Assembly (NCBI GenBank): GCA_028694375.1
Contig: JAQUTN010000006.1
Coordinates: 1 to 37,741 of the forward strand
DNA from: Bacteroidales bacterium
GTDB lineage: Bacteria; Bacteroidota; Bacteroidia; Bacteroidales; UBA1402
DNA: 37,741 nt
Direction: 5' to 3'
The notes beneath the pieces were generated by a model. That model did not search any database and was not told the origin of the DNA. It saw nothing but the letters and a program-made list of their open reading frames with translations. Shown here in pieces: positions 12,873-37,741 of this stretch (position 1 is the first letter of the stretch; each line of letters starts with the position of its first letter). The position numbers and the translations under genes were made by a program.

Positions 12873-12917
12873 GCTCTTGAAAGCTAAATGTTTAGAATGG
12901 TTTTTAAAAATATCCGA

Positions 12918-12925
12918 CAAGAATA
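12918..12925 (-). promoter_or_regulatory. Possible -7 element of the pectate lyase gene
   Basis: Minus-strand TATTCTTG is one base off TAnnTTTG and lies 46 nt upstream of the chosen start at 12872. Weak; offered because its position agrees with the signal-peptide start. Confidence 0.25.
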
Positions 12926-20275: not shown

Positions 20276-20283
20276 TATATTTG
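20276..20283 (+). promoter_or_regulatory. Putative -7 element of the signalling gene cluster
   Basis: TATATTTG, an exact TAnnTTTG match, 33 nt upstream of the ATG at 20317. It overlaps a TTG at 20281 that would otherwise lengthen the kinase by 12 residues, so it fixes the start at 20317. Confidence 0.6.
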
Positions 20284-20316
20284 CACTTTAGGTTTACCAT
20301 TTTTTCTGTTCCTGCA

Positions 20317-23300
20317 ATGATTAACAATCCATTTACGATCTCCTATATTGCTTCTGCGCTTATCTCTTTTGGTTTGATGACCTATATTTTTATGCGTAGA
20401 AAAGAGGGCATGAGCAGTTATATTTATTTGTTGCTGACCTGTACAGCTGGCTGGTCTTTGTTCTACGGACTCGAATTGGCTGCAACTTCGAGCGATGACA
20501 TTAAGTTTTATCTGCAGATGGAATACATTGGCATCAGTTTGTTGCCGGTTTTTTATTTGTTTTATATTATCACTTATACCAGGGCTGAGAAATTTTTCAA
20601 TAAGTCGTTTTACCCTTTCTTTTTTGTAATACCTCTTGTCACTATTGCCATGGTGATAAGCAACGATGTCCATCACCTGTTTTATGCCCAGTCTTCGTTC
20701 AAAACTCTGGGTTATTATTATTACCACGCATTTGTTCCCGGGCCGTTTTACTACATTCACGTGGTTTATTCCTATTCTTTGATTGCCACTGGTATCGTTT
20801 TGTTATTAAAGACTTATAAGGGGCAAAATAAAACACAACGAGCTAACATTTTGATTTTACTATCGGGTACTGTGGTTCCTTTTTTTACCAGTATAGCTTA
20901 TATGCTTGATTTCAGGCCTGAGGGTTTTATCGATCTAACTCCCTTGGGTTTTCTCATCATGTCAGTTATATTGGCCTATGGTGCTGTTAGTAATAAATTA
21001 TTCGAGATGACTCCCATCGTTCTGAATTATTTATACGAGATGATACCGGACGCCATTTTTGTACTGGATCGCAATTCAAATATTATCAATACCAATCCCA
21101 GCGCCCAAAGATTATTGAATTCGGGTATTATGGAAGAATGCCTCAAAAACGATGATTGTTTGCATTATGAGGATTTGCCCGATATAGAAGAAACACAGAA
21201 TAAGGAAGTAAAGGCGGGTGACAAGTATTTTTATATTACCAGGAAGGCCGTAACCGAAGGGAACAATAAGCAAATCGGCCTGATGCTGATAGTTAAGGAT
21301 GTTACTGAACTGAAAAATCTGGAACATATGCAGGAACTCCTGATGTCCATTGCCCTTAATTTTATCAATACCCCTCTGGATGAATACGAAAAGACGGTTT
21401 ATGTTTCGTTGGAAAAGATGGGGGGTTATGTGAACGCCGAAAGAGCTTATGTGGTCAATTACAATTACTCTAAGGGTATTATAAATTTAATCCATGAATG
21501 GCGCAAACAGGGAGTAAGTTCCATCTTTAATGAATTGCAGAATATAAATCTGGATGCTATCAAAGAACTGATTGATATTCATAATAACCGGGAGAGTTTT
21601 TTTGTCGAAGATATGCAGGTTTTGCTGGAAGGTAGTCCTTTGTATGAGTCGCTCAAATTCAGCAAAGAAAAAAGTTTTTTGGCCATTCCTATGTTCGAGG
21701 GCTCCAGTCTGATAGGCTTTTTGGGCTTCGACTGGTTATATAAAAATCATAAATACAGTCATAAAGAGCAGCAATTATTGCAATTGTTTGCTGAGATTCT
21801 GGTGAATTTGATCAGCCGGAAAGAAGTGAACAAAATTATCAAACAGCAGGCAGAGGTTGAAAGACTTACGGCAGAAATATCCTCTGATTTTGTACGTTCC
21901 AACAGTCAGAATATTCAGGAAGTAATTACAAAAACCCTCGAGAAACTTGGCCGCTTTATGCAGGTGGACAGTGCTTTTGTGTTTGAATTCTTTGAGGGGC
22001 AGGATTTTCAAATAAGAGAGTGGAGCCTGATTCCGAGAAATAAACCCCAACAATTGGCTTTGGCAAACTATAGCTGGCTAAACAGACAACTGGGCAAGGG
22101 AATGCTCCGCATCGACAAAGTGGAAGAAATGCCTCACGAAGCAGAAGCTGAACGAAACGACCTGATAGCCTGGGGTATCAAGTCAATGATTTCCATAGCT
22201 ATAAGAAACAATAACCAAACTATCGGAACCATGGGTTTTCAAATGCTCAGTCATCACCGACGCTGGAACGACGAAGATGCCAATTTGCTGAAAATATTCA
22301 GTAATATCATTGGTGAAGCCATGTTTAAGGTAGAGCGAGAAAAAGAACTCATACAGGCCAAAAATATGGCCGAATCGGCCAGTAAAGCAAAATCGGAGTT
22401 TCTCTCCAACACCAGTCACGAGATACGCACCCCTTTGAACGGTATGATCGGATTTACTGAATTGTTGCGCAACACCAAGCTAAATAAGGTACAGCTTGAA
22501 TATGTAGAAAACGCCATAATGTCGGCCAATACTTTGATGGCCGTAATAAACGATATTCTGGATTTTTCCAAGATTGAATCGGGTAAACTGGAACTGGACA
22601 TTGTGCATACTGACATTGTGCAACTGGTAGAAAAGGCCTCGGATATTGTAAAAATTATGGCCAGTCAAAAGGGTCTGGAACTTTTGCTGAATATTCAACC
22701 CGATACACCCAGGTATGCCTACGTTGATCCTATTCGCCTCAAACAGATCATGGTGAATTTGCTTAGCAATGCCGTTAAATTTACGACTAAAGGCGAAGTG
22801 GAAATCTCTCTGAGGTTCAAGGAAATAGATGAATTCCAGGCTCAGTTTATTCTGTCTGTACGAGATACGGGTATTGGAATTCGCGACGAAGACAAGAGTA
22901 AACTTTTTAAAGCCTTTTCGCAGGCTGATTCTTCCATAACCCGCAGATATGGGGGTACAGGTCTGGGACTCATCATCTCCAATTCTCTGGCCGAAAAAAT
23001 GGGCAGTAAAATCAATTTCACCAGCGAATATGGCAAAGGTTCTGTTTTTTCAATGAGCTTTGTCAGCCGCTACGAACGTAAACATACCGAAGACAGTGAC
23101 GGTAGTTTCCCGATAAAAAGAATACTGATTATTGACGATAACGAAAACAATCGCGAAATACTCGAACATAATTTCATGTATTGGGGCCTGGATTTCAGTA
23201 GTGCAGAAAGCGCAAAAGAAGCCATGGCTATACTCGAGAAGGACCCCGGTTTCGATGTCGTTCTGGTTGATTACAATATGCCCGAAATGGACGGTTTAAC

Positions 23301-24315
23301 AGCGGTTGCTGCAATGCGGGAAAAGAAACTGCTGAATCCCCAAAAACAGGCCATCGTTTTGTTGCACAGTTCTTCGGAAGATCACACGATAAACGAAAGA
23401 GCCCGTGAACTTCAGATCAGACAAACAATTACCAAACCTTTAAAAGCCAGCGATTTGCTATATTATCTAAAGCATTTATCCCTGGCTAATCCTGCCTTGC
23501 TGGTTTTAAAAGTTCCCGAAAGTTCGGTTATTCGGGAGAAACCGGCCGATTTCTCAAAACAATTTTGCATACTGGTGGCCGAAGATGTCAAAATGAATAT
23601 GATGTTAGTAGTTCAGCTTATCAGAAAGCGTTTCCCCAATGCCAGGATACTGGAAGCCTCTAATGGTAAAGAAGTTCTCGGATTGCTCGAAAACAATCTT
23701 CCCGACCTGATACTAATGGACGTGCAAATGCCTGTAATGGACGGCCTGGACGCTTGTCGCAACATTCGTACCCACAACAATCCTCAAGTAAGGAGCCTGC
23801 CTGTGATTGCCCTTACTGCAGGAGTTTCCAAATCGGAACAAGAGTTATGCAAACTGGCGGGGATGAGTGATTTTATTTCCAAACCTATTGATAAAAAGAT
23901 CTTGTATCAGACTATGCTGAAACACGCAGCTTCGGCCAGCGGAAAACAGCTGATTGAAGCCGGAGGCGAGGGAAAGCCTCAAGATGTTTCTTTGCATTTC
24001 AACAAAAAGAATCTGATGGATAAAATACTGGACGACAAAGATTTATATAAGCAGTTGATGTCGCAGTCTTTGAAAGAGTTCGACAAAGACGTAAATGAAC
24101 TGTTAGAAAAAGTAAAAACCTCAGATCAGGAAAAAATAAAAGCAGCAGCCCACAGGCTCAAAGGCAGTGCTTTCAACATGGAATTTACACGTCTGGGCAG
24201 CCTGGCCAGGGTAGTAGAACAAAATGCTGCCGATCCCGGTTTATTAAAGTCCGAGAGCGAAAAACTACAGTCCGAGTGGCTTAATTTAAAAGATATTATT
24301 GCAAACGAAGTATAA
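20317..24315 (+). CDS. Membrane hybrid histidine kinase: 7TM-PAS-GAF-GAF-HisKA-HATPase-REC-REC-HPt
   Basis: A 1332-residue sensor kinase. Residues 1-225 contain seven hydrophobic helices resembling the HisKA_7TM sensor. A PAS domain follows (about 238-340), then two GAF domains (about 340-505 and 515-680). The HisKA domain has phospho-acceptor H701 in SHEIRTPLNG. The ATPase domain has N814 (NLLSNAVKF), DTGIGI and GGTGLGL. Two receivers follow, with phospho-acceptors D985 (LVDYNMP) and D1135 (LMDVQMP), and an HPt domain with H1279 (AAHRLKGSA). Receiver threonine/serine and lysine residues also look intact, so a full internal His-Asp-Asp-His relay is possible. The signal is unknown. The next kinase gene starts 6 nt later and is a paralogue from HisKA onward. 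The chosen start agrees with the promoter element at 20276-20283. Confidence 0.93.
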   Translation: MINNPFTISYIASALISFGLMTYIFMRRKEGMSSYIYLLLTCTAGWSLFYGLELAATSSDDIKFYLQMEYIGISLLPVFYLFYIITYTRAEKFFNKSFYPFFFVIPLVTIAMVISNDVHHLFYAQSSFKTLGYYYYHAFVPGPFYYIHVVYSYSLIATGIVLLLKTYKGQNKTQRANILILLSGTVVPFFTSIAYMLDFRPEGFIDLTPLGFLIMSVILAYGAVSNKLFEMTPIVLNYLYEMIPDAIFVLDRNSNIINTNPSAQRLLNSGIMEECLKNDDCLHYEDLPDIEETQNKEVKAGDKYFYITRKAVTEGNNKQIGLMLIVKDVTELKNLEHMQELLMSIALNFINTPLDEYEKTVYVSLEKMGGYVNAERAYVVNYNYSKGIINLIHEWRKQGVSSIFNELQNINLDAIKELIDIHNNRESFFVEDMQVLLEGSPLYESLKFSKEKSFLAIPMFEGSSLIGFLGFDWLYKNHKYSHKEQQLLQLFAEILVNLISRKEVNKIIKQQAEVERLTAEISSDFVRSNSQNIQEVITKTLEKLGRFMQVDSAFVFEFFEGQDFQIREWSLIPRNKPQQLALANYSWLNRQLGKGMLRIDKVEEMPHEAEAERNDLIAWGIKSMISIAIRNNNQTIGTMGFQMLSHHRRWNDEDANLLKIFSNIIGEAMFKVEREKELIQAKNMAESASKAKSEFLSNTSHEIRTPLNGMIGFTELLRNTKLNKVQLEYVENAIMSANTLMAVINDILDFSKIESGKLELDIVHTDIVQLVEKASDIVKIMASQKGLELLLNIQPDTPRYAYVDPIRLKQIMVNLLSNAVKFTTKGEVEISLRFKEIDEFQAQFILSVRDTGIGIRDEDKSKLFKAFSQADSSITRRYGGTGLGLIISNSLAEKMGSKINFTSEYGKGSVFSMSFVSRYERKHTEDSDGSFPIKRILIIDDNENNREILEHNFMYWGLDFSSAESAKEAMAILEKDPGFDVVLVDYNMPEMDGLTAVAAMREKKLLNPQKQAIVLLHSSSEDHTINERARELQIRQTITKPLKASDLLYYLKHLSLANPALLVLKVPESSVIREKPADFSKQFCILVAEDVKMNMMLVVQLIRKRFPNARILEASNGKEVLGLLENNLPDLILMDVQMPVMDGLDACRNIRTHNNPQVRSLPVIALTAGVSKSEQELCKLAGMSDFISKPIDKKILYQTMLKHAASASGKQLIEAGGEGKPQDVSLHFNKKNLMDKILDDKDLYKQLMSQSLKEFDKDVNELLEKVKTSDQEKIKAAAHRLKGSAFNMEFTRLGSLARVVEQNAADPGLLKSESEKLQSEWLNLKDIIANEV

Positions 24316-24321
24316 GTAATC

Positions 24322-27300
24322 ATGAAGAAACACCAAACTAAAACAGACCAAAGTTTAAGCATTCGTCACTCATCCTACAAAAGTCGCTTATTGATTATCG
24401 GTATCATCTGTTCTTTGATTTTTTTCGTTTTTTATGTATTCAATTCCTGGAGGCAGGCCAATAAGGATTACGAGAAAAAGGCCCTGGATTTTGCTCAAAC
24501 CATCGGGCTTGTGTTAAACACCGTCAGACTGGAATTTCTTCAGGCCAGCCCAGGAGAAGAAAGTTCGGAATACTATCAAATTGTAAAGGAAAAATTGATC
24601 GACTTGGTCAGGCTGAATCCCGAAACTCGTTTTATTTATTTATTGAAGCAAAAAGAAGGCAAAGTGTACTTCATGGTAGACTCAGAACCGGTGGATTCAA
24701 AAGATTATTCTCCACCCGGCCAGGAATATTCCGATGCCGACACTGCCATCCTGACAGCCTTTCATGAAGCTGTGCCGGGAATTACAGAGCCCTACACCGA
24801 TCGTTGGGGGGAATGGAGAAGCGTAGTTGTGCCTTTGAAAAGCATACGCAACTCATCTGTTTATGCCTTATTGGCTGTTGATTATCCGGTGAGCCAATGG
24901 CGCAGGCTGGTTATGGACGAAGCTATGGATGATGCTGTTTACGCTCTTGCAGTGGTGTTGCTGTTGTTAAGTCTTTTCTTGATCATGAGCAAAAGCAATT
25001 CACTCAACAAGCAGGAAAGATTACGCAAAAGAGCCGAACAGCAAGCCATGGCCCTGCTGCATGTGGTTGAACAAAGTGATGATATTATTACGGTAAAAGA
25101 CTCGGAACTGAGGGTGTTTGCTGCCAACAAAGCATTTGCCCAGTCGGCCGGCTACGATGATTTTACCCAGGTTATTGGCAAAACGGATGCAGAGATTTTT
25201 AATATCCCGCCCGATGAAGAGCCTGTCAAAACCTATATGGAAGATGAGCGAAAAGCCCGCAATCTGAAGCCGGGAGAATATTTATTGCGAGAAGAAGAGT
25301 TAATCACGCATATCGGCGAAAGAAGAATCATTCTGACCAAAAAATACCCCATCTACGACAAAAACGACAACGTGCTGTTTACCGGCAATATTTCGCGCGA
25401 TATTACCGAACAAAAAAAGAACGAAGCCATTATCCGTTTCAACGAGATACAACTTAAAGAAGCTCAACGAATAGGAAACACAGGTCATTGGGATTACGAT
25501 GTGGAAAAAGATCTGCTGTTTTGGTCAGAGCAATGTTTTCGGATTTTCGGCCACGACCCGGAGCATTACGTCCCCGATTTACAATCTATGCTGGAGCAAT
25601 TCATTCCCGAAGACAGAAAACAATTTCTGCTGGCCATGAACGATTGTTACAACAGCCACTCCGAGTTCAAAATTGAACATTTTATTATTAAACCCGATGG
25701 AGAACAACGTTATGTAATGCAGAAGGCCAGAATGGAATGCGTAAACGGCAAACCTGTGAAGGTGTTTGCAACCATCAGCGATATTACGGAACGCAAAATG
25801 ATGGAGATCGAATTGCATAAATCTAAAGAAATTGCAGAAACAGCCTGTAATGCAAAGTCTGAATTTCTTTCGAATATGAGCCACGAAATCCGTACCCCTC
25901 TCAACGGTGTCATTGGTTTTACCGAATTGTTGTCAAATACACCCTTGAACAAAATGCAAAAAGAATACCTTGACAACGCCATAGTTTCGGCCAATTCTCT
26001 GTTGGGGATTATAAGCGATGTGCTGGATTTTTCCAAGATTGAAGCAGGCAAACTGGAACTCGATACAATATTAACCGATGTCCTGCAGCTGGTAGAGAGT
26101 GCTGCCGATATAATCAAAATACAGGCTTCGAACAAGGACATAGAACTCTTGTTAAATGTGCAGCCCGATTTGCCCCGTTACATGATGCTTGATCCGGTGC
26201 GTTTTAAACAAGTGCTGGTGAATCTGATGAATAATGCCGTAAAATTCACTCTTACAGGCGAAGTGGAACTTAAACTGAGTTTTATACGCCGGGACGAAAA
26301 CAAAGGAAAATTGACCGTGAGTGTGCGTGATACCGGTATAGGCATAAAAGAATCGGACAAAAGCAAATTGTTTAAAGCCTTTTCGCAGGCCGATACTTCA
26401 ACAACACGCAGGTACGGAGGAACCGGTCTGGGTTTGATAATTTCCAATTCCATTGTGAAAAAAATGGGAGGGGAAATCTTGTTCGAAAGTAAAATTGATG
26501 AAGGGTCCCTGTTTTATTTCACTCTGGAACTCAATTACGACGACGATCCTGCTCATGCCTTAAGCCCGATAAAAGACATTAAAAGTGTTTTGTTTGTAGA
26601 CGATAACGATAACAACCGTCTTATTCTGGAACGAACTTTTGAGTATTGGGGTATTGAATTCACCGGTTGCGAAAGTGGCTTGAAAGCCTTAAAACTTTTA
26701 CAGTCAGGTAAACACTTCGATTTGACTATTGTGGATTATCATATGCCTCAGATCGACGGACTTGAAACGATAAAATTGTTGCGAAAAGACGATCGTTTCG
26801 CTGCCGACAAGCTGCCTGTCATACTATTGCACAGTTCTTCCGACCACGATACCATTTATCACGCTGCCAAAGAATTGAAAATAGTGTATACCCTCACCAA
26901 ACCTGTTAAAGCAGTTGAACTTCATTATTACCTGCAAAAGCTTCATGCAGTCAACGAGGACAGTTACGAGCATTATTTACAGAATTTATCCAAAAGAGAA
27001 GAATCAAGTATTCGTACGCTAAAAAACAATCTAAAAATTATTATTACCGAAGATATCAAAATGAACATGTTGGTGATAGCCAATATGTTGAGGTATTTTA
27101 TGCCCAATGCCGAATTGTACGAAGCCGTCAATGGACAAGAAGCGATAGAAATGTTCGAAAAAGTTAATCCCGACCTGATATTAATGGATGTGCAATTGCC
27201 GGTCATGGATGGCCTGGAAGCTACCCGAAGAATTAGAAGCAGCGAAAACCCCCGGGCTAAAGATATTCCCATCATCGCTCTTACTGCCGGTGTTTCCAAT

Positions 27301-27774
27301 CAGGAAAAAGAGAATTGTTTCCTGGCAGGCATGAACGACTTTTTGCCTAAACCCATCGAAAAAGAGGCTTTATATCAGATTATAATCAAGAATGTACTAG
27401 GCCCCGAAGGGGCTGCTTACGAAACGGATGCCCTGTTTGAATCTGGTATTTATCATTTCAACGAAGACAAATTGTTGGAAAAGATCAACAAAGATAAAGA
27501 TCTTATGAAAAGCCTCCTGGAAATGGCCGTCGAAGAATATCCCGAATTTATCCGGCAAATGAGATCGGCCTGTGAGAATCAGGATGCTGCCGGTATTAAA
27601 TCCATAGCCCATACGCTCAAGGGCAGTGCTTACAATTTGGAGATGGCGCCTCTGGGTGATATTGCCCGAAAAATGGAATCTCAGCACGATGATCCTGAAG
27701 TTTTACCTATGTTACTCGAAAACCTGGAGAACGAATGGAAGAATGTGCAAAGCATTTTGCAGCAGAAACAATAA
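24322..27774 (+). CDS. Membrane hybrid histidine kinase: periplasmic sensor-PAS-PAS-HisKA-HATPase-REC-REC-HPt
   Basis: A 1150-residue sensor kinase. One membrane helix at about residues 22-42 and a second at about 206-226 enclose a periplasmic domain of some 160 residues that I cannot assign (possibly CACHE-like). Two PAS domains follow (about 240-375 and 375-500). Phosphorelay residues are H521 (SHEIRTPLNG), D805 (IVDYHMP), D956 (LMDVQLP) and H1097 (IAHTLKGSA), with the DTGIGI and GGTGLGL ATP-binding boxes present. The C-terminal half is clearly paralogous to that of the preceding gene, sharing for example RRYGGTGLGLIISNS. Only 6 nt separate the two genes, so they are surely cotranscribed. 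The different sensors suggest two inputs to one output. The unusual pair of receivers before the HPt is conserved in both. Confidence 0.93.
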   Translation: MKKHQTKTDQSLSIRHSSYKSRLLIIGIICSLIFFVFYVFNSWRQANKDYEKKALDFAQTIGLVLNTVRLEFLQASPGEESSEYYQIVKEKLIDLVRLNPETRFIYLLKQKEGKVYFMVDSEPVDSKDYSPPGQEYSDADTAILTAFHEAVPGITEPYTDRWGEWRSVVVPLKSIRNSSVYALLAVDYPVSQWRRLVMDEAMDDAVYALAVVLLLLSLFLIMSKSNSLNKQERLRKRAEQQAMALLHVVEQSDDIITVKDSELRVFAANKAFAQSAGYDDFTQVIGKTDAEIFNIPPDEEPVKTYMEDERKARNLKPGEYLLREEELITHIGERRIILTKKYPIYDKNDNVLFTGNISRDITEQKKNEAIIRFNEIQLKEAQRIGNTGHWDYDVEKDLLFWSEQCFRIFGHDPEHYVPDLQSMLEQFIPEDRKQFLLAMNDCYNSHSEFKIEHFIIKPDGEQRYVMQKARMECVNGKPVKVFATISDITERKMMEIELHKSKEIAETACNAKSEFLSNMSHEIRTPLNGVIGFTELLSNTPLNKMQKEYLDNAIVSANSLLGIISDVLDFSKIEAGKLELDTILTDVLQLVESAADIIKIQASNKDIELLLNVQPDLPRYMMLDPVRFKQVLVNLMNNAVKFTLTGEVELKLSFIRRDENKGKLTVSVRDTGIGIKESDKSKLFKAFSQADTSTTRRYGGTGLGLIISNSIVKKMGGEILFESKIDEGSLFYFTLELNYDDDPAHALSPIKDIKSVLFVDDNDNNRLILERTFEYWGIEFTGCESGLKALKLLQSGKHFDLTIVDYHMPQIDGLETIKLLRKDDRFAADKLPVILLHSSSDHDTIYHAAKELKIVYTLTKPVKAVELHYYLQKLHAVNEDSYEHYLQNLSKREESSIRTLKNNLKIIITEDIKMNMLVIANMLRYFMPNAELYEAVNGQEAIEMFEKVNPDLILMDVQLPVMDGLEATRRIRSSENPRAKDIPIIALTAGVSNQEKENCFLAGMNDFLPKPIEKEALYQIIIKNVLGPEGAAYETDALFESGIYHFNEDKLLEKINKDKDLMKSLLEMAVEEYPEFIRQMRSACENQDAAGIKSIAHTLKGSAYNLEMAPLGDIARKMESQHDDPEVLPMLLENLENEWKNVQSILQQKQ

Positions 27775-27817
27775 TTATTTAATCTGAACAAAAGACCATA
27801 AACCAGTATTAATTTGT

Positions 27818-27825
27818 TATATTTG
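27818..27825 (+). promoter_or_regulatory. Putative -7 element of the REC-kinase/sigma-54 activator pair
   Basis: TATATTTG, an exact TAnnTTTG match, 44 nt upstream of the ATG at 27869. It suggests that the last two signalling genes can be transcribed separately from the hybrid kinases. Confidence 0.5.
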
Positions 27826-27868
27826 CGATTCATGGGATGATTTGTTTTGTTTGCAAAAAAGAGAACGT

Positions 27869-28978
27869 ATGTCGTGCAATAAAAAACACCTTATTTATGT
27901 CATCGATGATAATCCGATGAATTTGTTGCTGACTTCCAAAATTCTTGAAAGTTACGGCTGCGAAACTCAGACTGCAGAAAGTGGCGCCGTTGCACTGCAG
28001 CTGATAAGGCAACAGAAACCTTCACTAATTCTGCTGGATATAAATATGCCCAATATGGACGGCTACGAAGTGTGTCGTCGGATCAAGGCCAAAGACGAGT
28101 GGGTGGACATTCCGGTCATTTTCCTGACAGCCAACACGCAAACCGAAAATCTGGTGGAAGGATTCAAGGTAGGCGGAGTCGATTACATAACCAAACCCTT
28201 TCGCAGAGAAGAACTTTGGGTACGGGTAATTACTCATCTCGAATTAGCAGATTCCAGACGGACCATTATGGAAATGAACCGTTCAAGAGATCGCTTATAT
28301 TCTATCATAGCTCACGATATTCGTTCTCCCTTGTCGGGCATACTTCAAACTCTGGAGGCTATAGATCAGGGTTATATTGGTTTGGAAGGTGACGAACTTA
28401 AAGAAATAATAAACTTACTCAAAGAACGTACCAAAGAAACCAGCACCTTGTTGAACAGCTTATTGCAATGGACCCGCATGCAAACCGACAGTCAGCAGTT
28501 GGAGTTCAAAGAGACCGATCTGTTTGTTCTTATTCAAAGTTGTATTGATTTGCTTCGTCCCAATGCCGAACAAAAACAATTAACTATAGAAGTGGAGGTA
28601 GAAGAAGAACTCAAAGCCTGGTGCGATGAACTCTCGGTACACACAGTAGTGCGCAACCTCTTATCCAACGCCATCAAATTTACCCCTCGTGGGGGGAAAG
28701 TGCGAATTTGTGCCAGCAAAAAAGAACTGCAGGCTTTGATCTCTGTCTCGGATAACGGCATAGGGATGAGCCCCGAAACCCAGGAGCGCATCTTTGCCAA
28801 AGGTCAGCATTACACAAGCACAGGTACCGAAAACGAGCAGGGTACAGGTTTGGGACTGATGCTGGTCAGGGAATTTGTCAACAAGAACAAGGGCAGTCTA
28901 CAGGTAGACAGTGAAGTCGGCAAGGGTACAGAATTCAAAGTGTTTCTTCCTTTGAAAAATGAACTGAATTATGGATAA
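27869..28978 (+). CDS. Soluble response-regulator histidine kinase: REC-HisKA-HATPase
   Basis: A 369-residue cytoplasmic protein without membrane helices. An N-terminal receiver (about residues 8-125) has the acidic pair in IDDN and phospho-acceptor D57 in LLDINMPNMDG. The HisKA domain has H149 in IIAHDIRSPLSG and the ATPase domain has NLLSNAIKF, DNGIGM and GTGLGL. Its receiver could accept phosphate from the HPt domains of the two upstream kinases and so control its kinase activity; that wiring is inferred. The stop overlaps the start of the sigma-54 activator gene by 8 nt, making that protein its likely partner. The ATG at 27869 is preferred over a TTG at 27842 because the latter lies too near the -7 element. 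Confidence 0.9.
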   Translation: MSCNKKHLIYVIDDNPMNLLLTSKILESYGCETQTAESGAVALQLIRQQKPSLILLDINMPNMDGYEVCRRIKAKDEWVDIPVIFLTANTQTENLVEGFKVGGVDYITKPFRREELWVRVITHLELADSRRTIMEMNRSRDRLYSIIAHDIRSPLSGILQTLEAIDQGYIGLEGDELKEIINLLKERTKETSTLLNSLLQWTRMQTDSQQLEFKETDLFVLIQSCIDLLRPNAEQKQLTIEVEVEEELKAWCDELSVHTVVRNLLSNAIKFTPRGGKVRICASKKELQALISVSDNGIGMSPETQERIFAKGQHYTSTGTENEQGTGLGLMLVREFVNKNKGSLQVDSEVGKGTEFKVFLPLKNELNYG

Positions 28979-30341
28979 AGCAGGCAGTAATATTTTGATT
29001 ATTGATGACGATCCTGTTTACAGAAGATTATCGTCATCCATTCTAAAGGAGCGTTTTACGGTATTTACCGCAGATTCTCCTTCGGCCGGATTCGAAACCC
29101 TCAAAAAAGAAAAGATCGATTACGTGATTTGCGACTACAGGCTTCCTCAAATGGATGGCCTGAGTGTTTTGGGAAAAATCAAAACCGATCATCCCCACAT
29201 CGAAGTTATCATGGTGAGCGATGCCGGTAATATGGATACCGTTATCGAAGCTTTGCGCCGGGGGGCAGTAGATTATTTCAAGAAGCCCTTTACACCGGCC
29301 GACATATGGATGTCTATCGAAAAAACACAACGTTTTTCCAAACTGAAAAAAGATTTTCAGTCAGAAAAGAACAAAAACAGCCAACTAAAGAAGTGGGTAG
29401 ACAAAGAAATGGGCTTACAGATGATGGGAGAATCTCCCATGATTGAAGAAATCAAAAACCAGATGCGCCTGGTGGCTCGCACTCCTGACACTTCAGTCTT
29501 GATTATTGGCGAAAGCGGTACCGGCAAAGAGTTGGTGGCCAGGGGTATTCACAATATGAGTGTACGCAGGGACGAGTTGTTTGGAGCCGTCAATATGTCG
29601 GCCATTCCCGAAAGCCTGTTCGAAAGTGAATTTTTCGGTCACAAAAAAGGCAGTTTTACCGGTGCTATTGCAGACAAAGCCGGCTGGTTCGAAACCACCG
29701 ACAAAGGCAGTCTGTTTTTGGATGAAATCGGTGACATGCCGCATAATTTGCAAGTGAAACTTTTGCGAGTGCTGGAAGAAAAAAAATACGTCAAAGTGGG
29801 AAATCAAAAAGAACAAACCTTTGATATCCGTATAATTGCAGCCACCAACAAGAGTCTCGAAGAAATATCCAATCCCAGGCTCTTCAGAACCGATCTTTTT
29901 CATCGCATCGGCACTTTTATTATTCATCTGCCGCCTTTGCGTGAACGCAAAGAAGACATTCCCTTGTTGGTAAAATATTTTGTGGCACAGTTCTCGGAAA
30001 AAATGGCCAAAACCAGCATTGAGGTTGCCCCCGAGGTTTATCCCTTGCTACAAAGCTATAATTTTCCCGGCAATATTCGTGAACTTAGAAATCTGATCGA
30101 AAGAGCTGTGATTTTGTGTAAGGACAGTATAATCAAAGCCGAAAACTTCGGGATAATTAACAAGTTAGTCCAAAGTGCTCCACACGAAGAAAGCTTCAAT
30201 TTGCAGGAAATCGAAAAAAGAGCCATCATCAAAGCGCTGGAAAACAGTGGCAAAGACCCGGCCCAAGCTGCCACATTGCTGAATATTGACTGCAAAAGCC
30301 TGTCCAAAAAGATGAAGCAGTATAATCTCTCTTTTATCTGA
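28971..30341 (+). CDS. Sigma-54-dependent response regulator (NtrC family): REC-AAA+-Fis-type HTH
   Basis: A 456-residue transcription activator of sigma-54 RNA polymerase. The receiver (about residues 6-122) has the IDDDP acidic patch and phospho-acceptor D55 in VICDYRLP. The AAA+ domain (about 153-390) has Walker A GESGTGKE at 180-187, Walker B in LFLDEIGDM, and the sigma-54 contact loop as GSFTGA at 227-232. The canonical loop is GAFTGA; Ala to Ser is a mild change. The C-terminus (about 410-456) is a Fis-type helix-turn-helix including [19 protein letters not shown]. It overlaps the REC-kinase gene by 8 nt, so the two are translationally coupled and likely a cognate pair. Target promoters are unknown; I did not find a convincing -24/-12 site in the gaps of this window. 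Confidence 0.93.
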
Positions 30342-30415: not shown

Positions 30416-30446
30416 AAAGCAAATATTGAATTTAACAGATAGCAAG

Positions 30447-31853
30447 ATGAAAAAAAACAGCCCGACCCTTTTGGCTATTTTGGTTTTTATAGCTGCCGTG
30501 ATTTTATTGTTGATGTACCGCACACCCAATAACATCTACCGTCCTGACGAAAAATTCAAAGCCATCTTACGTTCGGTCAAAGCGCCGGCCCTGCCCACGA
30601 ACCAATTGTCGATACTCAATTTTGGGGCAGTGGGCGATTCTGTTACCGATTGCAGACCAGCCTTCGATAAGGCCATGCAAGCTTGCCGGGAATTGGGCGG
30701 AGCCCGAATAATGGTACCGAAGGGTAAGTATTTTATGGATGGTCCCATTCATCTGGTCAGCAATGTTTGTCTGGATTTGCAGGAAGGAGCCGAACTCTTT
30801 TTCAGTTCCAATCCCCGCAGTTACCTGCCTGTAGTACGCAGCAGCTGGGAAGGCACATTCTTGTACAATTACAGTCCTTTTATATATGGTTACCAGCTAA
30901 AAAACATCTCCATCATTGGCAAAGGCAGCATAGATGGCCGGGCTGCCGGAAGTTTTGCTCAATGGGCCGAACTGGACGACAACGATCAGGCCCTGAGCCG
31001 CGAGATGAATTACGCCGGTACGCCCATCGAGGAGCGGATTTTTGGCGAAGGGCATTTTCTGCGTCCCCAGCTGATACAGCTTTTTGAATGTAAGAATATT
31101 CTTATAGAGGATGTTATGCTCAAAGATTCTCCGTTCTGGTGTTTGCATTTACTTAAATCGGAGAACATCACCGTCAGAGGAATCCGCTTTTCGGCTTTCA
31201 ATAAAAATAACGATGGTATAGATCCGGAATATTCCCGAAACGTGTTGATAGAAAACGTGCAATTCAATAATTCCGACGACAACGTGGCCATCAAGGCCGG
31301 CCGCGATTACGAGGGACGCAAAACCAATACTCCTTCCGAGAACATCATTATCCGCAATTGCAGTTTCAAAGGCCTGCACGCAGTGGTGATCGGCAGCGAA
31401 ATGTCGTCGGGCGTCAGAAACATATTTGTTCGCGACTGCGATAACGGAGGTTACCTGAAAAGGGGCATTTACCTCAAATCCAATCCTGACCGCGGAGGCT
31501 ATATAAAGAATATTTATATTGACAACCTGAAGCTGGACACAGTGGAAGACTGCTTTTTTATCACTTCCAATTATCAAAATCAGGGCAAGGGTTTTGAAAC
31601 CGAAATAAGGGATATATATGTCAACAATCTCCAGTGCAAGAAGGCCGAAAATGCCGGTATAGTGATTCAAGGCTTTGAAACCAAAAAAGTCCGTGATATT
31701 TATTTGAGTAACGTAAACATTGAGAAGGCTGCAGTGGGCCTGTTTATGGAGCATGCCGAAAACGTAGTGTTGGACAATGTAATCTCCGGAGGCAGAGTGG
31801 GAGCACCGTCAACAGCCAAAAAAACAGACTTACAACGAATTAAGCAAGAATAA
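30447..31853 (+). CDS. Glycoside hydrolase family 28 polygalacturonase-like enzyme, membrane-anchored or exported
   Basis: Predicted to hydrolyse alpha-1,4-galacturonosyl bonds in pectin. The 468-residue product has an N-terminal hydrophobic segment (residues 7-23) that could be a signal peptide or an uncleaved anchor; no lipoprotein cysteine follows. The beta-helix starts near residue 55 (LNFGAVGDSVTD). GH28 catalytic residues are recognisable: D256 and D259 in NNDGID, the pair D277-D278 in NNSDDNVAIKAG, H311 in the GLHAVVIGSE segment (in place of the usual GHG context), and R339 to K344 in RGIYLKS. The pattern suits an exo-acting bacterial GH28, though the cleavage mode is not certain. The ATG at 30447 is preferred to a TTG 21 nt earlier. 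It follows the sigma-54 activator by 105 nt containing a possible structured leader. Confidence 0.88.
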   Translation: MKKNSPTLLAILVFIAAVILLLMYRTPNNIYRPDEKFKAILRSVKAPALPTNQLSILNFGAVGDSVTDCRPAFDKAMQACRELGGARIMVPKGKYFMDGPIHLVSNVCLDLQEGAELFFSSNPRSYLPVVRSSWEGTFLYNYSPFIYGYQLKNISIIGKGSIDGRAAGSFAQWAELDDNDQALSREMNYAGTPIEERIFGEGHFLRPQLIQLFECKNILIEDVMLKDSPFWCLHLLKSENITVRGIRFSAFNKNNDGIDPEYSRNVLIENVQFNNSDDNVAIKAGRDYEGRKTNTPSENIIIRNCSFKGLHAVVIGSEMSSGVRNIFVRDCDNGGYLKRGIYLKSNPDRGGYIKNIYIDNLKLDTVEDCFFITSNYQNQGKGFETEIRDIYVNNLQCKKAENAGIVIQGFETKKVRDIYLSNVNIEKAAVGLFMEHAENVVLDNVISGGRVGAPSTAKKTDLQRIKQE

Positions 31854-31874: not shown

Positions 31875-31882
31875 TATCTTTG
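31875..31882 (+). promoter_or_regulatory. Putative -7 element of the GHMP kinase gene
   Basis: TATCTTTG matches TAnnTTTG, 23 nt upstream of the ATG at 31906, in the 52-nt gap after the GH28 gene. It suggests that the kinase, and perhaps galU, are not simply read through from the polygalacturonase gene. Confidence 0.5.
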
Positions 31883-31905: not shown

Positions 31906-32895
31906 ATGATTATCGAGAGTAGAGCCTATGCGCGTGCCGGTTTGCTGGGAAATCCTTCGGACGGCTTTTTCGGTAAAACCATTTCCATCATTGTACGTAA
32001 TTTCGGTGCCGGTGTGTTGCTGTATGAATCGCCGGAACTGGTGATAGAAGAGGACGAGGAAGACCGTTTCCGTAATCTGCGTCATATGACCGAAACCATC
32101 AAAAAGACAGGTTATTACGGAGGTAAACGTCTGGTTAAGGCCGCCATTAAGAAATTCAGTGAATACTGCGATCAGGAGAGTATCCGACTTCCCGCCCGCA
32201 ACTTTACCCTGCGTTTTGGCACCACCATTCCCCGTCAGGTGGGGCTATCGGGTTCCAGTGCCATCATCACGGCCACTTTCAAGGCTCTGATGAAATTTTA
32301 CGAGGTACAGATTCCGCAGGAAGTGCTGCCAAGCTGGGTGCTCAAGGCTGAATCCGAAGAATTGTCTATTACGGCAGGTTTGCAGGACAGAGTAATACAG
32401 GCTTACGAAGGCTGTGTTTATATGGATTTTGATCGTGAATATATGAGCAAGCATGGTCGTGGCCGTTACGAAAGCCTAGATCCGGCCTTGCTTCCAAAGT
32501 TTTATATTGCTTACAAAACTCAGTTGAGCAAGGTTTCGGGTGCCGTGCACAATCCCATCAAGGAAAAGTTCGAAGCCGGAGACCCTTTGGTTTGCGACAC
32601 GCTGGCCCAGATTGCCGAAGTAGCCGAACAAGGCCGCACTGCCATCCTGAACAGGGATTACGATACCCTTGATCGTCTGATCAATCTGAATTTTGACTTA
32701 CGCCGCAAGATTTACCAGATCAGTCCCAATCATTTGGAATTGGTCGAAGCGGCACGTTCCTGCGGGCTTTCGGCTAAGTTTGCCGGCTCGGGAGGAACCA
32801 TTATTGGTATGTATCGCGACGAAGAAGCCCTGCATCGCCTCTTTGTAAAGATGAAGAGCTTGAATGCCAGGGTAATAAAGCCTTATATTATGTAA
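31906..32895 (+). CDS. GHMP-family sugar kinase resembling plant glucuronokinase
   Basis: Predicted cytoplasmic anomeric kinase converting a free sugar, most likely D-glucuronate or D-galacturonate, to its 1-phosphate. The 329-residue protein has all three GHMP motifs. Motif 1 is ARAGLLGNPSDGF (10-22), motif 2 is IPRQVGLSGSSA (108-119, the ATP loop), and motif 3 is KFAGSGGTIIG (291-301). The probable catalytic Asp is D161 in TAGLQDRV. As far as I recall the plant glucuronokinase sequences, the segments around motif 2, AGLQDRV, VYMDF and AEQGRTAILN are strikingly similar, more than to galactokinase or mevalonate kinase. galU follows 113 nt downstream and could turn the product into a UDP-sugar. 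Substrate assignment is inference; a heptose or fucose kinase is less likely. Confidence 0.8.
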   Translation: MIIESRAYARAGLLGNPSDGFFGKTISIIVRNFGAGVLLYESPELVIEEDEEDRFRNLRHMTETIKKTGYYGGKRLVKAAIKKFSEYCDQESIRLPARNFTLRFGTTIPRQVGLSGSSAIITATFKALMKFYEVQIPQEVLPSWVLKAESEELSITAGLQDRVIQAYEGCVYMDFDREYMSKHGRGRYESLDPALLPKFYIAYKTQLSKVSGAVHNPIKEKFEAGDPLVCDTLAQIAEVAEQGRTAILNRDYDTLDRLINLNFDLRRKIYQISPNHLELVEAARSCGLSAKFAGSGGTIIGMYRDEEALHRLFVKMKSLNARVIKPYIM

Positions 32896-32953
32896 AAGGA
32901 TTCAGGTTGGACACAAAATGACTGATAGCTAAACCAGACTGACTTGGATTCAA

Positions 32954-32990
32954 CCAAACCAAATCAAATCAAATTATACCAAACCAGACC
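32954..32990 (+). repeat. Imperfect pentamer repeat upstream of galU
   Basis: Seven 5-bp units varying around CCAAA/TCAAA (one unit degraded to TTATA) occupy the 113-nt gap between the kinase gene and galU, ending 18 nt before the galU start. The 9-mer AAACCAGAC also occurs twice in this gap, 50 nt apart (32931 and 32981). No promoter element was recognised here. Confidence 0.6.
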
Positions 32991-33008
32991 ATTCAGAATA
33001 GTACAACT

Positions 33009-33887
33009 ATGATTCGAAAAGCAGTAATCCCGGCAGCAGGGCTGGGAACACGATTTTTACCTGCCACCAAGGCGCAGCCCAAAGAAATGCTGCCAATTAT
33101 CGATATTCCCACCATACAATATGTGGTACAGGAATGTGTTGAATCGGGCATAGAAGACATACTGATAATCACGGGCAAAGGCAAGCGCTCCATCGAAGAC
33201 CATTTTGACCGTAATCCCGAGCTCGAAGAACGTCTGCTCAAAGAACGCGAAGACGAATATTGGTACAACGAACTCAGGCATATCGACAGCATGGCCAACA
33301 TCCATTTCGTACGTCAGAAAGAACAAAACGGCCTGGGCGATGCCATTTATTATGCCCGTTTCCATTGCGGCAACGAGGCTTTTGCCGTCTTGCTGGGTGA
33401 CAGCGTCAACGATTCGGTCATTCCCATTACCCAGCAAATGATAGACACCTACGAGCAATATCATCATACGGTAATTGCCGTGCAGCAGGTGGATGATAAT
33501 AAGGTGAGCCGTTACGGCATCATGGGCGGGACTTTTTTGAGCGACCGTATTATGCAAGTTTCCGAAATGGTAGAAAAACCTGCTCCCGGCAAAGCGCCTT
33601 CCAACTGGGCCGTGGCCGGACGTTATATTCTCACTCCCGAAATTTTTCAGGCCATAGAACAAACACCGCGCGGCAAGGGCAACGAAATTCAGATTACCGA
33701 TGCCCTGCGTATTTTGCTGCAAACCGAGAGCATCATTGCTATGAAAATAGAAGGGCGCCGTTACGACATCGGCAATAAGCTCGATTACCTGAAGACCACC
33801 GTCGATTTTGCCCTGAAACGCAAAGAATTTGCCGATGATTTTGCCGCCTATCTCAGAGAAAAACTCAGGGAATTCGATAAAGCCTGA
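33009..33887 (+). CDS. galU: UTP-glucose-1-phosphate uridylyltransferase (GalU type)
   Basis: Cytoplasmic nucleotidyltransferase forming UDP-glucose from UTP and glucose 1-phosphate. The 292-residue product has the N-terminal nucleotide-binding signature AAGLGTRFLPATKAQPKEMLP, the segment IEDILIITGKGKRSIEDHFD, and the catalytic-region pieces FAVLLGDSVND, VEKPAPGKAPSN and RYDIGNKLDYL. Length is standard for bacterial GalU. Its place right after a glucuronokinase-like gene raises the possibility that it accepts uronic acid 1-phosphates, as the plant UDP-sugar pyrophosphorylase does. However, the sequence motifs themselves are ordinary GalU, and another copy elsewhere in the genome cannot be excluded. 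A perfect 12-bp palindrome (33883-33894) overlaps the stop codon but has no T run. Confidence 0.92.
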   Translation: MIRKAVIPAAGLGTRFLPATKAQPKEMLPIIDIPTIQYVVQECVESGIEDILIITGKGKRSIEDHFDRNPELEERLLKEREDEYWYNELRHIDSMANIHFVRQKEQNGLGDAIYYARFHCGNEAFAVLLGDSVNDSVIPITQQMIDTYEQYHHTVIAVQQVDDNKVSRYGIMGGTFLSDRIMQVSEMVEKPAPGKAPSNWAVAGRYILTPEIFQAIEQTPRGKGNEIQITDALRILLQTESIIAMKIEGRRYDIGNKLDYLKTTVDFALKRKEFADDFAAYLREKLREFDKA

Positions 33888-34012: not shown

Positions 34013-35632
34013 ATGAAAACTTCAATCAGTCTTTTAATTACAGTTCTTTTTTCGCTCAATCTTTTACAGGCCCAATACGTTTCCAAAGTATGGAAAGGCG
34101 ACCTGGGCGACGGACGTTATAAAAATCCTATTATTAATGCCGATTATTCCGATCCCGACGTTTGCCTGGGTGCCGACGGCTATTATATGGTGGCATCCAG
34201 CTTTAATTGTGTGCCCGGTTTGCCTGTGTTGTTTTCCAAAGACCTGGTAAACTGGAGTTTGGTGGGGCATGCGCTGAGCAAACAGATACCCGAAGATTTC
34301 TACAATAAGGTGCAACACGGCAGCGGAGTGTGGGCTCCTTCCATACGTTATCACAACAAGGAATACTATGTGTATTGGGGCAATCCCGATTTTGGTATTT
34401 TCATGGTAAAGGCCTCCAATCCCCGGGGCCCATGGACGGAGCCGCATTTGGTTAAAGCCGGCAAAGGCCTTATCGATGTTTGTCCTCTCTGGGACGAAGA
34501 CGGCAAAGCCTATATGTCTTTTGCACTGGCCGGCAGCCGGGCAGGGCTTAAATCCGTTTTACTCGTTGCCCCCATGAGCCCCGATGGTAAAAGTCTGATT
34601 GGCGAGCCGCGCATAATCTACGACGGACACGAAAGCAATCCCACCATAGAAGGGACCAAGTTTCACAAACACGAGGGCAAGTATTATATCTTTGCCCCCG
34701 CCGGCGGAGTATCTACCGGTTGGCAGGTGGTACTAAAAGCCGATCATCCCTATGGCCCCTGGCAGGTGCGCACAGTGATGCACCAGGGAAATACCAGCAT
34801 CAACGGCCCGCATCAGGGAGCCTGGGTAAGAACTCCGCAGAACGAAGATTGGTTTATTCATTTTCAGGATGTTGGCGTTATGGGAAGGGTGATTCATCTC
34901 AATCCTATGCAGTGGAAGAACGCTTGGCCGGTCATCGGCCTTGACAAAGATAAAGACGGTATAGGCGAGCCAGTTACCACTTACCGCAAGCCTGCTGTGG
35001 CTGCCAAAGTGCCTGTGTGTACGCCTGTGGAAAGCGATGAGTTCGACAAACCAAACTTGGGATTACAATGGCAGTGGCAGGCCAACCCCAACTTTAAATG
35101 GTATTACCTGAATCCCGCCAACGGAGGTAATTTGCGCTTGTATTCTTTTTATACATCCGGGGCAAAAAGCTTGTGGGATGCGCCCAATTTATTGCTTCAA
35201 AAATTTCCCGCCCCTGAGTTCAAGGCTACAACCAAAATTCGTATAGAGCCAGACAAACGCTACAAGGGCGAACGCGGAGGCCTGGTGGTGATGGGCATGG
35301 ACTACGCAGTGCTTTGCATCGAGAACACCGAGAATACCTTGCTGCTTACTCAAAATACCTGCAACAAAGCCGACAACAACGGTACGGAGAGAATAGTGGC
35401 TGCCGTGCCTTTGACTCAACAGGATATTTACCTCAGGGTAGAGGTGAAAGAAGGTCAATACTGTAGTTTCCATTACAGTCTTGATGGCCAAAAATTTATA
35501 CGTATCGGAACCGAATTCAAAGCCCGCGAAGGCAAATGGATAGGTGCCAAAATCGGTTTATTTTGTACCCGTCCCCAGGAATCGAACGATGGCGGATGGT
35601 TGGATGTCTCGCATTTCAGGATTGAACCTTGA
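34013..35632 (+). CDS. Secreted glycoside hydrolase family 43 enzyme (beta-xylosidase/alpha-L-arabinofuranosidase type)
   Basis: Predicted exo-glycosidase acting on xylose- or arabinose-containing side chains of plant polysaccharide. The 539-residue product has a signal peptide (residues 1-20, ending LLQAQ). A five-bladed propeller domain follows (about 35-330). The catalytic triad can be placed: base D47 in ADYSDPDV, the pKa-tuning D155 in GLIDVCPLWDEDG, and the acid E213 in PTIEGTKF. A C-terminal beta-sandwich (about 345-539), the accessory domain found in many GH43 members, completes the protein. The N-terminal pattern resembles subfamily 12, but I cannot confirm this without a search. Its stop overlaps the start of the TonB-dependent receptor gene by one base (TGATG), so the two are translationally coupled. 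In this locus, arabinan or rhamnogalacturonan side chains are plausible targets. Confidence 0.9.
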   Translation: MKTSISLLITVLFSLNLLQAQYVSKVWKGDLGDGRYKNPIINADYSDPDVCLGADGYYMVASSFNCVPGLPVLFSKDLVNWSLVGHALSKQIPEDFYNKVQHGSGVWAPSIRYHNKEYYVYWGNPDFGIFMVKASNPRGPWTEPHLVKAGKGLIDVCPLWDEDGKAYMSFALAGSRAGLKSVLLVAPMSPDGKSLIGEPRIIYDGHESNPTIEGTKFHKHEGKYYIFAPAGGVSTGWQVVLKADHPYGPWQVRTVMHQGNTSINGPHQGAWVRTPQNEDWFIHFQDVGVMGRVIHLNPMQWKNAWPVIGLDKDKDGIGEPVTTYRKPAVAAKVPVCTPVESDEFDKPNLGLQWQWQANPNFKWYYLNPANGGNLRLYSFYTSGAKSLWDAPNLLLQKFPAPEFKATTKIRIEPDKRYKGERGGLVVMGMDYAVLCIENTENTLLLTQNTCNKADNNGTERIVAAVPLTQQDIYLRVEVKEGQYCSFHYSLDGQKFIRIGTEFKAREGKWIGAKIGLFCTRPQESNDGGWLDVSHFRIEP

Positions 35633-37741
35633 TGAAAAAATACCTGCTGAGCTGCTTGCTGACTTTGCTGAGCCTCGCCCTCCCGGCGGCGGATATAACC
35701 ATTAGCGGATACATCTCTGACGAGGAGACAGGCGAAACGCTTATAAACGCTACGGTTTTCGACAGTATTTCGGGCAAAGGAGCCGTGAGCAATCTGTATG
35801 GTTTCTATACGCTTACACTGCCCGAGGGCCAGGTGCATCTTATCTATTCCTATCTGGGTTACAAGCCTCAGCGCTTTGTCTTCAGGGCCGATAACAACCG
35901 CCAACTGACGGTGCGTTTGCAAGCCAGTACCGAGCTCGAAGAAGTCGTGGTAAGCGGCAGGCAACACAAGGAGTTCGGAGTGTTGGGGACCCAGATGAGT
36001 ACAGTGGAGATTCCGGTGGCTCAAATCAAAAATATCCCTTCGCTGCTGGGCGAAAACGATGTTATCAAGGCTTTGCAGCTTTTGCCCGGTGTGCAATCGG
36101 GCTCAGAGGGCTCGGCGGGGCTTTATGTGCGGGGAGGCGGTCCGGACGAAAACCTCCTGTTGCTCGACGGAGTGCCAGTGTATAACGTGAATCATATGTT
36201 TGGCTTTTTTTCGGTGTTCAATGCCGATGCCATCAAAAACGTCACCCTGTACAAAGGCAATTTTCCCGCCCGTTTCGGGGGAAGGCTCTCCTCGGTAGTG
36301 GACATCCGCATGAACGACGGCAACGACAAGAGCTACCACGGCAATATCAGCGTCGGGCTGATCTCCTCCAAATTCAATTTCGAAGGCCCCATAGTGCGGG
36401 AGAAAACCAGTTTCAACCTGTCTTTTCGCCGCACCTATGCCGACTTGCTGGTTCAACCCGTACTCCAGGCTTACAGACTTAATATGGGAGGAGAGGTGGA
36501 CAAACTCTCGGCCGGTTATTATTTTTATGATTTCAACGGCAAAATCAATCATAAATTTTCGGATCAGGACCGTTTGTACCTGAGTTTTTATTCGGGCGAC
36601 GATGCTGTTTACGCTAAGGTTAGAGACAAGTACAGCGAGTCCAACGAATACAAATACATCTCCACCATAGGGCTGGACTGGGCCTGGGGCAACCTGATTA
36701 CGGCTCTGCGTTGGAATCACATCATCAACAGCAAAATGTTTTTGAATACCACAGCCTCTTATACCCGTTATCGTTTTGATATGTCCATAGGGATGAACGA
36801 AGAAAATTGGGAATACCAACCTCCAAAGTATTTTGCTTCCGATATATTAATGGGCTATCGTTCCGGGATTGAGGATTATACCATCAAAGCTGATTTGGAT
36901 TACACACCCAATCCCGGGCATACGATTAAAATGGGAGCTAATTATACTTACCACACTTTTAAACCCGGTGTAACGGTAGCCCAGTTCCAGATGGACGACG
37001 ATAGTATGCACCATACCCTGCTCGACACCACTTACGGCGACAGTTTTGTGTATGCTCACGAAACCATGCTTTATGTGGAAGACAACATTGATTTGGGCCG
37101 TTTTATTAAAGCCAACCTGGGCTTGCATTATTCTACTTTCTTTGTGCAGCAGCAGTTTTATCATTCCCTGCAACCCCGCTTGGGTTTGCGTTTTCTGTTT
37201 AGCGAGGATCTTTCGTTCAAGGCCGGGTACGCCATGATGAGCCAGTACATCCACCTTTTGTCCAACAGCAGCATCAGCCTGCCAACCGACCTCTGGGTGC
37301 CGGTAACCAAACGCATTACGCCCATGAGGTCGCATCAGGTGTCGGCCGGTCTGTTTTACAACCTCAACAATCTGGTCGATTTTTCGGTGGAAGGCTATTA
37401 TAAATCTATGTACAACATTCTGGAATACAAGGATGGAGCCTCTTTTATGGGCTCAACCACCGGCTGGGAAGATAAGGTAAGCATGGGCAGGGGCTGGTCT
37501 TATGGCCTGGAATTTCTGGCGCAAAAGTCTTATGGCCGCTATACCGGCTGGATTGGTTATACCTGGGCCAAATCGGAACGTCTGTTTGACCGCCCCGGCC
37601 AGGAGCTCAACAACGGGAAAGTGTTTCCGGCCAAATACGACCGCCGCCACGACCTGAGCATTACGGCAGCCTATAAGCTGAACGATCGTATAGATTTCGC
37701 AGCTACCTGGATATACAGCAGCGGCAATTGCGCCACCCTGG
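35632..37741 (+). CDS. TonB-dependent outer-membrane receptor with carboxypeptidase-regulatory-like N-terminal domain (3' end cut off)
   Basis: Outer-membrane gated channel for ligand uptake powered by TonB-ExbBD. About 703 codons are visible and the frame is open at the window edge. Residues 1-20 are a signal peptide. Residues about 22-105 are a carboxypeptidase-D-regulatory-like domain (ISGYISDEETGETLINATV). Residues about 125-235 are the plug, with LPGVQSGSEGSAGLYVRGG, LLLLDGVPVYN and YKGNFPARFGGRLSSVVDIRM. The beta-barrel follows. This plug pattern is that of a Bacteroidota receptor group that usually lacks a SusD partner, not of SusC, and no susD gene is seen before it. It overlaps the GH43 stop by one base, suggesting import of a product of that enzyme, though the ligand is unknown. 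Confidence 0.92.
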   Translation, partial: MKKYLLSCLLTLLSLALPAADITISGYISDEETGETLINATVFDSISGKGAVSNLYGFYTLTLPEGQVHLIYSYLGYKPQRFVFRADNNRQLTVRLQASTELEEVVVSGRQHKEFGVLGTQMSTVEIPVAQIKNIPSLLGENDVIKALQLLPGVQSGSEGSAGLYVRGGGPDENLLLLDGVPVYNVNHMFGFFSVFNADAIKNVTLYKGNFPARFGGRLSSVVDIRMNDGNDKSYHGNISVGLISSKFNFEGPIVREKTSFNLSFRRTYADLLVQPVLQAYRLNMGGEVDKLSAGYYFYDFNGKINHKFSDQDRLYLSFYSGDDAVYAKVRDKYSESNEYKYISTIGLDWAWGNLITALRWNHIINSKMFLNTTASYTRYRFDMSIGMNEENWEYQPPKYFASDILMGYRSGIEDYTIKADLDYTPNPGHTIKMGANYTYHTFKPGVTVAQFQMDDDSMHHTLLDTTYGDSFVYAHETMLYVEDNIDLGRFIKANLGLHYSTFFVQQQFYHSLQPRLGLRFLFSEDLSFKAGYAMMSQYIHLLSNSSISLPTDLWVPVTKRITPMRSHQVSAGLFYNLNNLVDFSVEGYYKSMYNILEYKDGASFMGSTTGWEDKVSMGRGWSYGLEFLAQKSYGRYTGWIGYTWAKSERLFDRPGQELNNGKVFPAKYDRRHDLSITAAYKLNDRIDFAATWIYSSGNCATL

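Follow-up and report, generated by a model that had tools for sequence, protein, structure and literature searches.

Two adjacent genes in the window (the whole 37,741-nucleotide stretch of DNA analysed here) probably encode a glucuronokinase and a dedicated glucuronate-1-phosphate uridylyltransferase, which together would form a salvage module for UDP-glucuronic acid (UDP-GlcA); judging from sequence, we give this reading a probability of roughly 0.7. In the proposed route, whose substrate, reaction order and product use we infer, the kinase would convert free D-glucuronic acid (GlcA) and ATP to GlcA-1-phosphate by phosphorylation at C1, and its GalU-type partner, a putative dedicated relative of UDP-glucose pyrophosphorylase with one acidic residue fewer in the sugar pocket, would convert GlcA-1-phosphate and UTP to UDP-GlcA and PPi. 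UDP-GlcA would then enter glycan synthesis without UDP-glucose dehydrogenase, and uronate catabolism would be handled separately by a UxaC operon. The earlier note had proposed a uronic-acid-1-kinase working with a pyrophosphorylase, and this still appears to be the best reading, given that the kinase falls outside the curated galactose, heptose and mevalonate kinase families, that the pairing is strongly conserved and that an aspartate whose equivalent contacts glucose is missing from the partner GalU.

The gene pair and the identity of the kinase

The features of the locus are:

30426..31853, + strand: GH28 glycosidase, neighbour (PF00295; NF049892 below cut-off)
31875..31882, + strand: TATCTTTG, a weak resemblance to the Bacteroidota -7 promoter element, 23 bp before the kinase start
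31906..32895, + strand: GHMP-family sugar-1-kinase, proposed glucuronokinase, 329 aa (PF00288, PF08544, AlphaFold2 model)
33009..33887, + strand: GalU-type uridylyltransferase, proposed glucuronate-1-phosphate uridylyltransferase, 292 aa (TIGR01099, co-occurrence, Ser132)
33399..33404, + strand: Asp131-Ser132 codons of the GalU-type enzyme (YngB Asp133/Asp134 by alignment)
34013..35632, + strand: GH43 glycosidase with a beta-xylosidase C-terminal domain, neighbour (PF04616, PF17851)

The description of a GHMP kinase beside galU was confirmed: both open reading frames lie on the same strand, separated by 113 bp, the kinase contains both the N- and the C-terminal GHMP domain (PF00288, 43.8 bits, cut-off 22.3; PF08544, 32.7 bits, cut-off 21), and its neighbour passes the TIGR01099 galU model (372 bits, cut-off 326.8). 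The GH28 gene lies 52 bp upstream of the kinase and the GH43 gene 125 bp downstream of galU, all four on the + strand. Third-position G+C is nearly equal in these genes (0.53-0.54), and their composition therefore shows no sign of recent import. The count of TATCTTTG across the window equals the chance frequency, and no -33 element was found to go with it.

The earlier note had placed the pair inside a pectin locus, which is only loosely correct. A pectinesterase gene lies at 9427-11070 and a weak match to pectate lyase at 11214-12920, both at least 17 kb away, with unrelated genes between. Gene context varies among the pair's relatives, which are generally not found among pectin genes, and we rejected a pectin-linked module on the basis of these neighbourhoods. 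Directly upstream of the GH28 gene, at 20281-30341, are four consecutive signalling genes encoding a 7TM hybrid histidine kinase with Hpt, a PAS hybrid kinase with Hpt, a receiver-histidine kinase and a sigma-54 response regulator, a possible phosphorelay. The last gene of the window (35629-37740), which runs off its end, encodes a TonB-dependent receptor with CarboxypepD_reg and Plug domains. Taken with the closest named relative of the pair, in Rufibacter tibetensis (see below), this receptor makes Bacteroidota the most likely origin of the window.

The kinase was compared with other GHMP families through curated profile scores. Its NCBIfam scores were far under the respective cut-offs for galactokinase (19/443 bits), heptose kinase HddA (32/600) and mevalonate kinase (55/163), on which basis these three identities were rejected; the proposition that it does not group with heptose or galactose kinases holds for these curated profiles. 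PDB sequence and profile searches returned distant GHMP kinases only. An AlphaFold2 model (pLDDT 92.6) gave galactokinases and the heptokinase WcbL as the best folds, a predicted architecture as expected for a sugar-1-kinase, with tied scores (Z ~31-32) that do not tell sugar kinases apart from one another.

A more specific lead came from a provisional version of the Arabidopsis GlcAK1 sequence, which is not a database record and serves as a lead only: the window kinase is 45% identical to it over 306 residues. With the same reservation, provisional GlcAK1 keeps 43 of the 47 near-invariant columns of the prokaryotic kinase family. Where it differs from the window kinase, its residues are seen in other family members at a rate of 0.168, versus 0.057 after shuffling (three times), and the provisional sequence is therefore not a mere echo of the window kinase.

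Co-occurrence, adjacency and spread of the pair

We surveyed the pair in four phyla. In the window's own phylum, the kinase is present in 11 of 395 genomes, and galU (at E<=1e-60) was found in the same 11 genomes and in 0/384 kinase-free genomes; the two genes adjoin in 10/11, galU being on another contig in the remaining one. In the phylum of the Lentisphaerae relative, where 98 of 288 genomes bear the kinase, 77 have both genes, 21 have the kinase with no strong galU match and 2 have galU only, such that galU occurs in 77/98 kinase genomes versus 2/190 others (Fisher p 1.4e-47, kinship ignored). Here, 62 of the 79 galU genes are direct neighbours of the kinase gene, which comes first in 61 of these pairs. 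In the Acidobacteria phylum, the kinase occurs in 18/297 genomes and the pair in 16 of 17 assessable ones, with galU first in the loci checked, and in the Asgard phylum the kinase occurs in 2/195 genomes, with no strong galU match next to it at either locus (0/2). The 21 kinase genomes lacking a strong galU match and the two Asgard loci speak against the salvage reading.

Adjacency was thus found in three phyla and in either gene order, as well as on a Rufibacter plasmid, and pairwise distances among the kinases correlate with those among their linked GalUs (r = 0.81; permutation maximum 0.14; kinship ignored). The two genes co-occur across hundreds of genomes far above chance (kinship ignored); a pairing that is not conserved, which the earlier note had named as a refutation, was thus not what we found. 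An incidental linkage is unlikely in view of how widely the pair is spread, of its occurrence in either gene order and of its exact co-occurrence, although the co-occurrence statistics ignore kinship.

Relatives sharing 44-56% identity with the kinase come from the archaeon Candidatus Sigynarchaeum and, among bacteria, from an Acidobacterium and two MAGs, one of which is labelled Lentisphaerae; none of the five genomes sampled from the window's own order has the kinase. Sequences of the window's phylum are scattered across the kinase tree, one group standing beside an Acidobacteria-phylum sequence. Among named organisms, Rufibacter tibetensis has the closest relative of the pair, on its mobilizable plasmid NZ_CP012644 (locus L174), where the two genes are annotated only as 'GHMP kinase' and GalU. 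The scattered tree and the plasmid copy point to horizontal movement of the pair. Two Acidobacteria-phylum kinases (L088 and L093) have one in-frame stop each (TAG and TGA), reflecting either decay or sequencing error.

The partner GalU and the choice of sugar

To find positions that distinguish the partner enzymes, we compared the sequences of 84 partner GalUs and 13 ordinary GalUs. The first-ranked of all positions was 132, which splits the two sets completely, with Asp (10), Met (2) or Val (1) in ordinary GalUs and Thr (59), Ser (22), Ala (2) or Cys (1) in partners. By alignment it corresponds to YngB Asp134, beside the Mg-binding Asp133; the window GalU has Ser132 and retains the Mg-binding Asp131. 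According to the YngB structure report (PMC7961091), Asp134 is predicted to contact the glucose moiety; the further contacts listed are Gly172, Glu191 and Val204. The equivalents of these last three are retained in the window GalU. Next to the Val204 equivalent, position 203 is mostly Ile or Val in ordinary GalUs and Ala in partners. Three of the 13 ordinary GalUs have Val or Met at position 132 (e.g. those of E. coli and Sinorhizobium), and Asp132 is therefore common, not universal, among them, a point against the salvage reading. To accommodate a carboxylated sugar, an enzyme of this type would presumably have to lose such an acid from its sugar pocket. The first tree of the GalUs requires two changes, as two origins of the partner enzymes would; once one long-branch row is dropped, a single split fits, with almost no support, and the partners may have arisen once or twice.

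The window's own genome also has an ordinary uronate catabolic cluster on another contig than the pair (C186; L191), where consecutive genes encode UxaC, a PfkB-family kinase, KDPG aldolase and an MFS transporter and a GH28 gene is close by. This bears on the possibility that the kinase is a galacturonokinase, with GH28 freeing galacturonate, the kinase forming GalA-1-phosphate and the GalU-type enzyme forming UDP-galacturonate. The GH28 neighbour is indeed related to alpha-D-galacturonidase (best NCBIfam match BT4155, NF049892; 320 bits vs a cut-off of 800), and the pocket change in GalU would fit any uronate. However, the UxaC operon, with its own GH28, deals with uronates, and the window kinase resembles provisional GlcAK, whereas plant galacturonokinase is reported to differ greatly in sequence from glucuronokinase (PMC3938481). 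Given this sequence difference and the lack of a conserved pectin context around the pair, galacturonate is less likely than glucuronate to be the substrate, and we consider this reading unlikely. The pectin and galacturonate framing of the earlier note is not supported, in view of the varying gene context, the separate UxaC operon and the reported divergence of the plant enzyme, and UDP-galacturonate as the direct product finds no support in this analysis.

Alternatively, the kinase might act on a neutral hexose, a deoxyhexose or a heptose, with the GalU-type enzyme activating the resulting 1-phosphate for cell-surface glycans. Some relatives do lie near glycosyltransferases or a DegT aminotransferase, and the kinase fold is close to galactokinase and WcbL, but we hold such a substrate to be unlikely: the scores for galactokinase, HddA and other curated families are far under cut-off, one relative (L160) adjoins a gene with UDP-glucose 6-dehydrogenase as its best match (629 bits, cut-off 757), and a neutral sugar leaves the loss of the glucose-contacting acid in GalU unexplained. 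It is highly improbable that galU is a housekeeping UDP-glucose pyrophosphorylase with an incidental place beside the kinase. Although this gene scores above the GalU equivalog cut-off and its genome has no other GalU gene, none of the phylum's 384 kinase-free genomes has a GalU of this family, so that housekeeping UDP-glucose must be made otherwise in them, and its exact co-occurrence with the kinase (11/395 genomes) led us to reject the housekeeping role at phylum level. The adjacency, moreover, recurs in several phyla, and one Acidobacterium (L004) has an ordinary GalU with a DD motif on another contig in addition to the linked GalU.

Relation to known routes to UDP-glucuronate

The textbook bacterial source of UDP-glucuronate is UDP-glucose dehydrogenase. 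None was detected in the window's own genome, although this absence may be a gap because the genome is 84% complete; the sole PF03721 match above threshold in that genome resembles TviB (447 bits, short of the TviB cut-off of 592). If the pair is a glucuronokinase with its own uridylyltransferase, bacteria can make UDP-glucuronate straight from scavenged glucuronate, bypassing the dehydrogenase. A gene called merely 'GHMP kinase' by RefSeq would then have a function, 'galU' annotations would be corrected in many genomes, and the pair would offer a two-enzyme cascade for UDP-GlcA production.

The direct route from GlcA to UDP-GlcA has so far been described in plants and lower animals, and the best reading of the window pair is as an unfused bacterial counterpart of plant GlcAK plus USP and of zebrafish DrGKUP. 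In the literature searched, we found no report of a bacterial glucuronokinase; one elsewhere is possible. In plants, glucuronate is supplied by MIOX, and the UDP-sugar pyrophosphorylase USP has a broad substrate range and belongs to a different size class. The same two reactions are proposed for the window pair, the kinase of which is similar to provisional GlcAK1, but its partner is of GalU type, and no MIOX (PF05153) match was found in the window's own genome (84% complete). MIOX is present in 3/11 kinase-bearing genomes of the phylum, and we rejected it as a general glucuronate source for want of linkage.

Like bacterial GalU and YngB, the window GalU belongs to the TIGR01099 family and retains the Mg-binding Asp and most glucose contacts; unlike them, it has Ser in place of the glucose-contacting Asp134 and is an obligate genomic partner of the kinase. 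The Bacteroides L-fucokinase/GDP-fucose pyrophosphorylase FKP shares the salvage logic of a GHMP sugar-1-kinase with a pyrophosphorylase, and the kinase model superimposes on the FKP structure 9iit (Z 29.7, rmsd 3.0, 319 aligned, 16% identity), but FKP is fused, makes GDP-fucose and is distant in sequence, whereas the window has separate genes.

The closest system described so far is the zebrafish glucuronokinase/putative pyrophosphorylase DrGKUP, a fused nucleotidyltransferase-glucuronokinase specific for GlcA that makes UDP-GlcA (Gangl et al. 2014, PMC3938481). Its authors found hardly any activity in the pyrophosphorylase domain, and they describe the related proteins of bacteria and archaea as consisting of the pyrophosphorylase alone (PMC3938481). 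The window pair likewise joins a GHMP kinase, here proposed to be a glucuronokinase, to a bacterial-type nucleotidyltransferase for the conversion of GlcA to UDP-GlcA. DrGKUP, however, is one protein with the nucleotidyltransferase first and a pyrophosphorylase domain of ~260 aa, in contrast to two genes with the kinase first and a 292-aa, full GalU-family member in the window. We tentatively suggest, as a possibility short of even odds, that the bacterial kinase-galU pairs are a mobile UDP-GlcA salvage module with its own GlcA-1-P uridylyltransferase and the source of the fused eukaryotic enzyme. Such pairs would supply what the zebrafish study was missing, a pyrophosphorylase homologue that is active, and, being unfused, would help in understanding why the zebrafish domain shows so little activity.

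No single frame with both nucleotidyltransferase and kinase domains was found at the window or the loci examined, and a prokaryotic fusion was rejected after some promising long frames proved not to contain both. Three more kinases adjoin another nucleotidyltransferase, an AglF-like one following the kinase in one case and a short GalU-like protein (~255 aa) directly preceding it in two (L132:3003-3770 and L151:4355-5116), with the order and size seen in the fused zebrafish enzyme. At some loci that lack galU, the gene after the kinase (L138:5323-8982 and L140:622-4230) encodes a ~1200-aa protein whose N-terminal part is a Ser/Thr protein kinase domain, and similar-sized open reading frames occupy the equivalent place in L141, L143, L144, L145 and L150.
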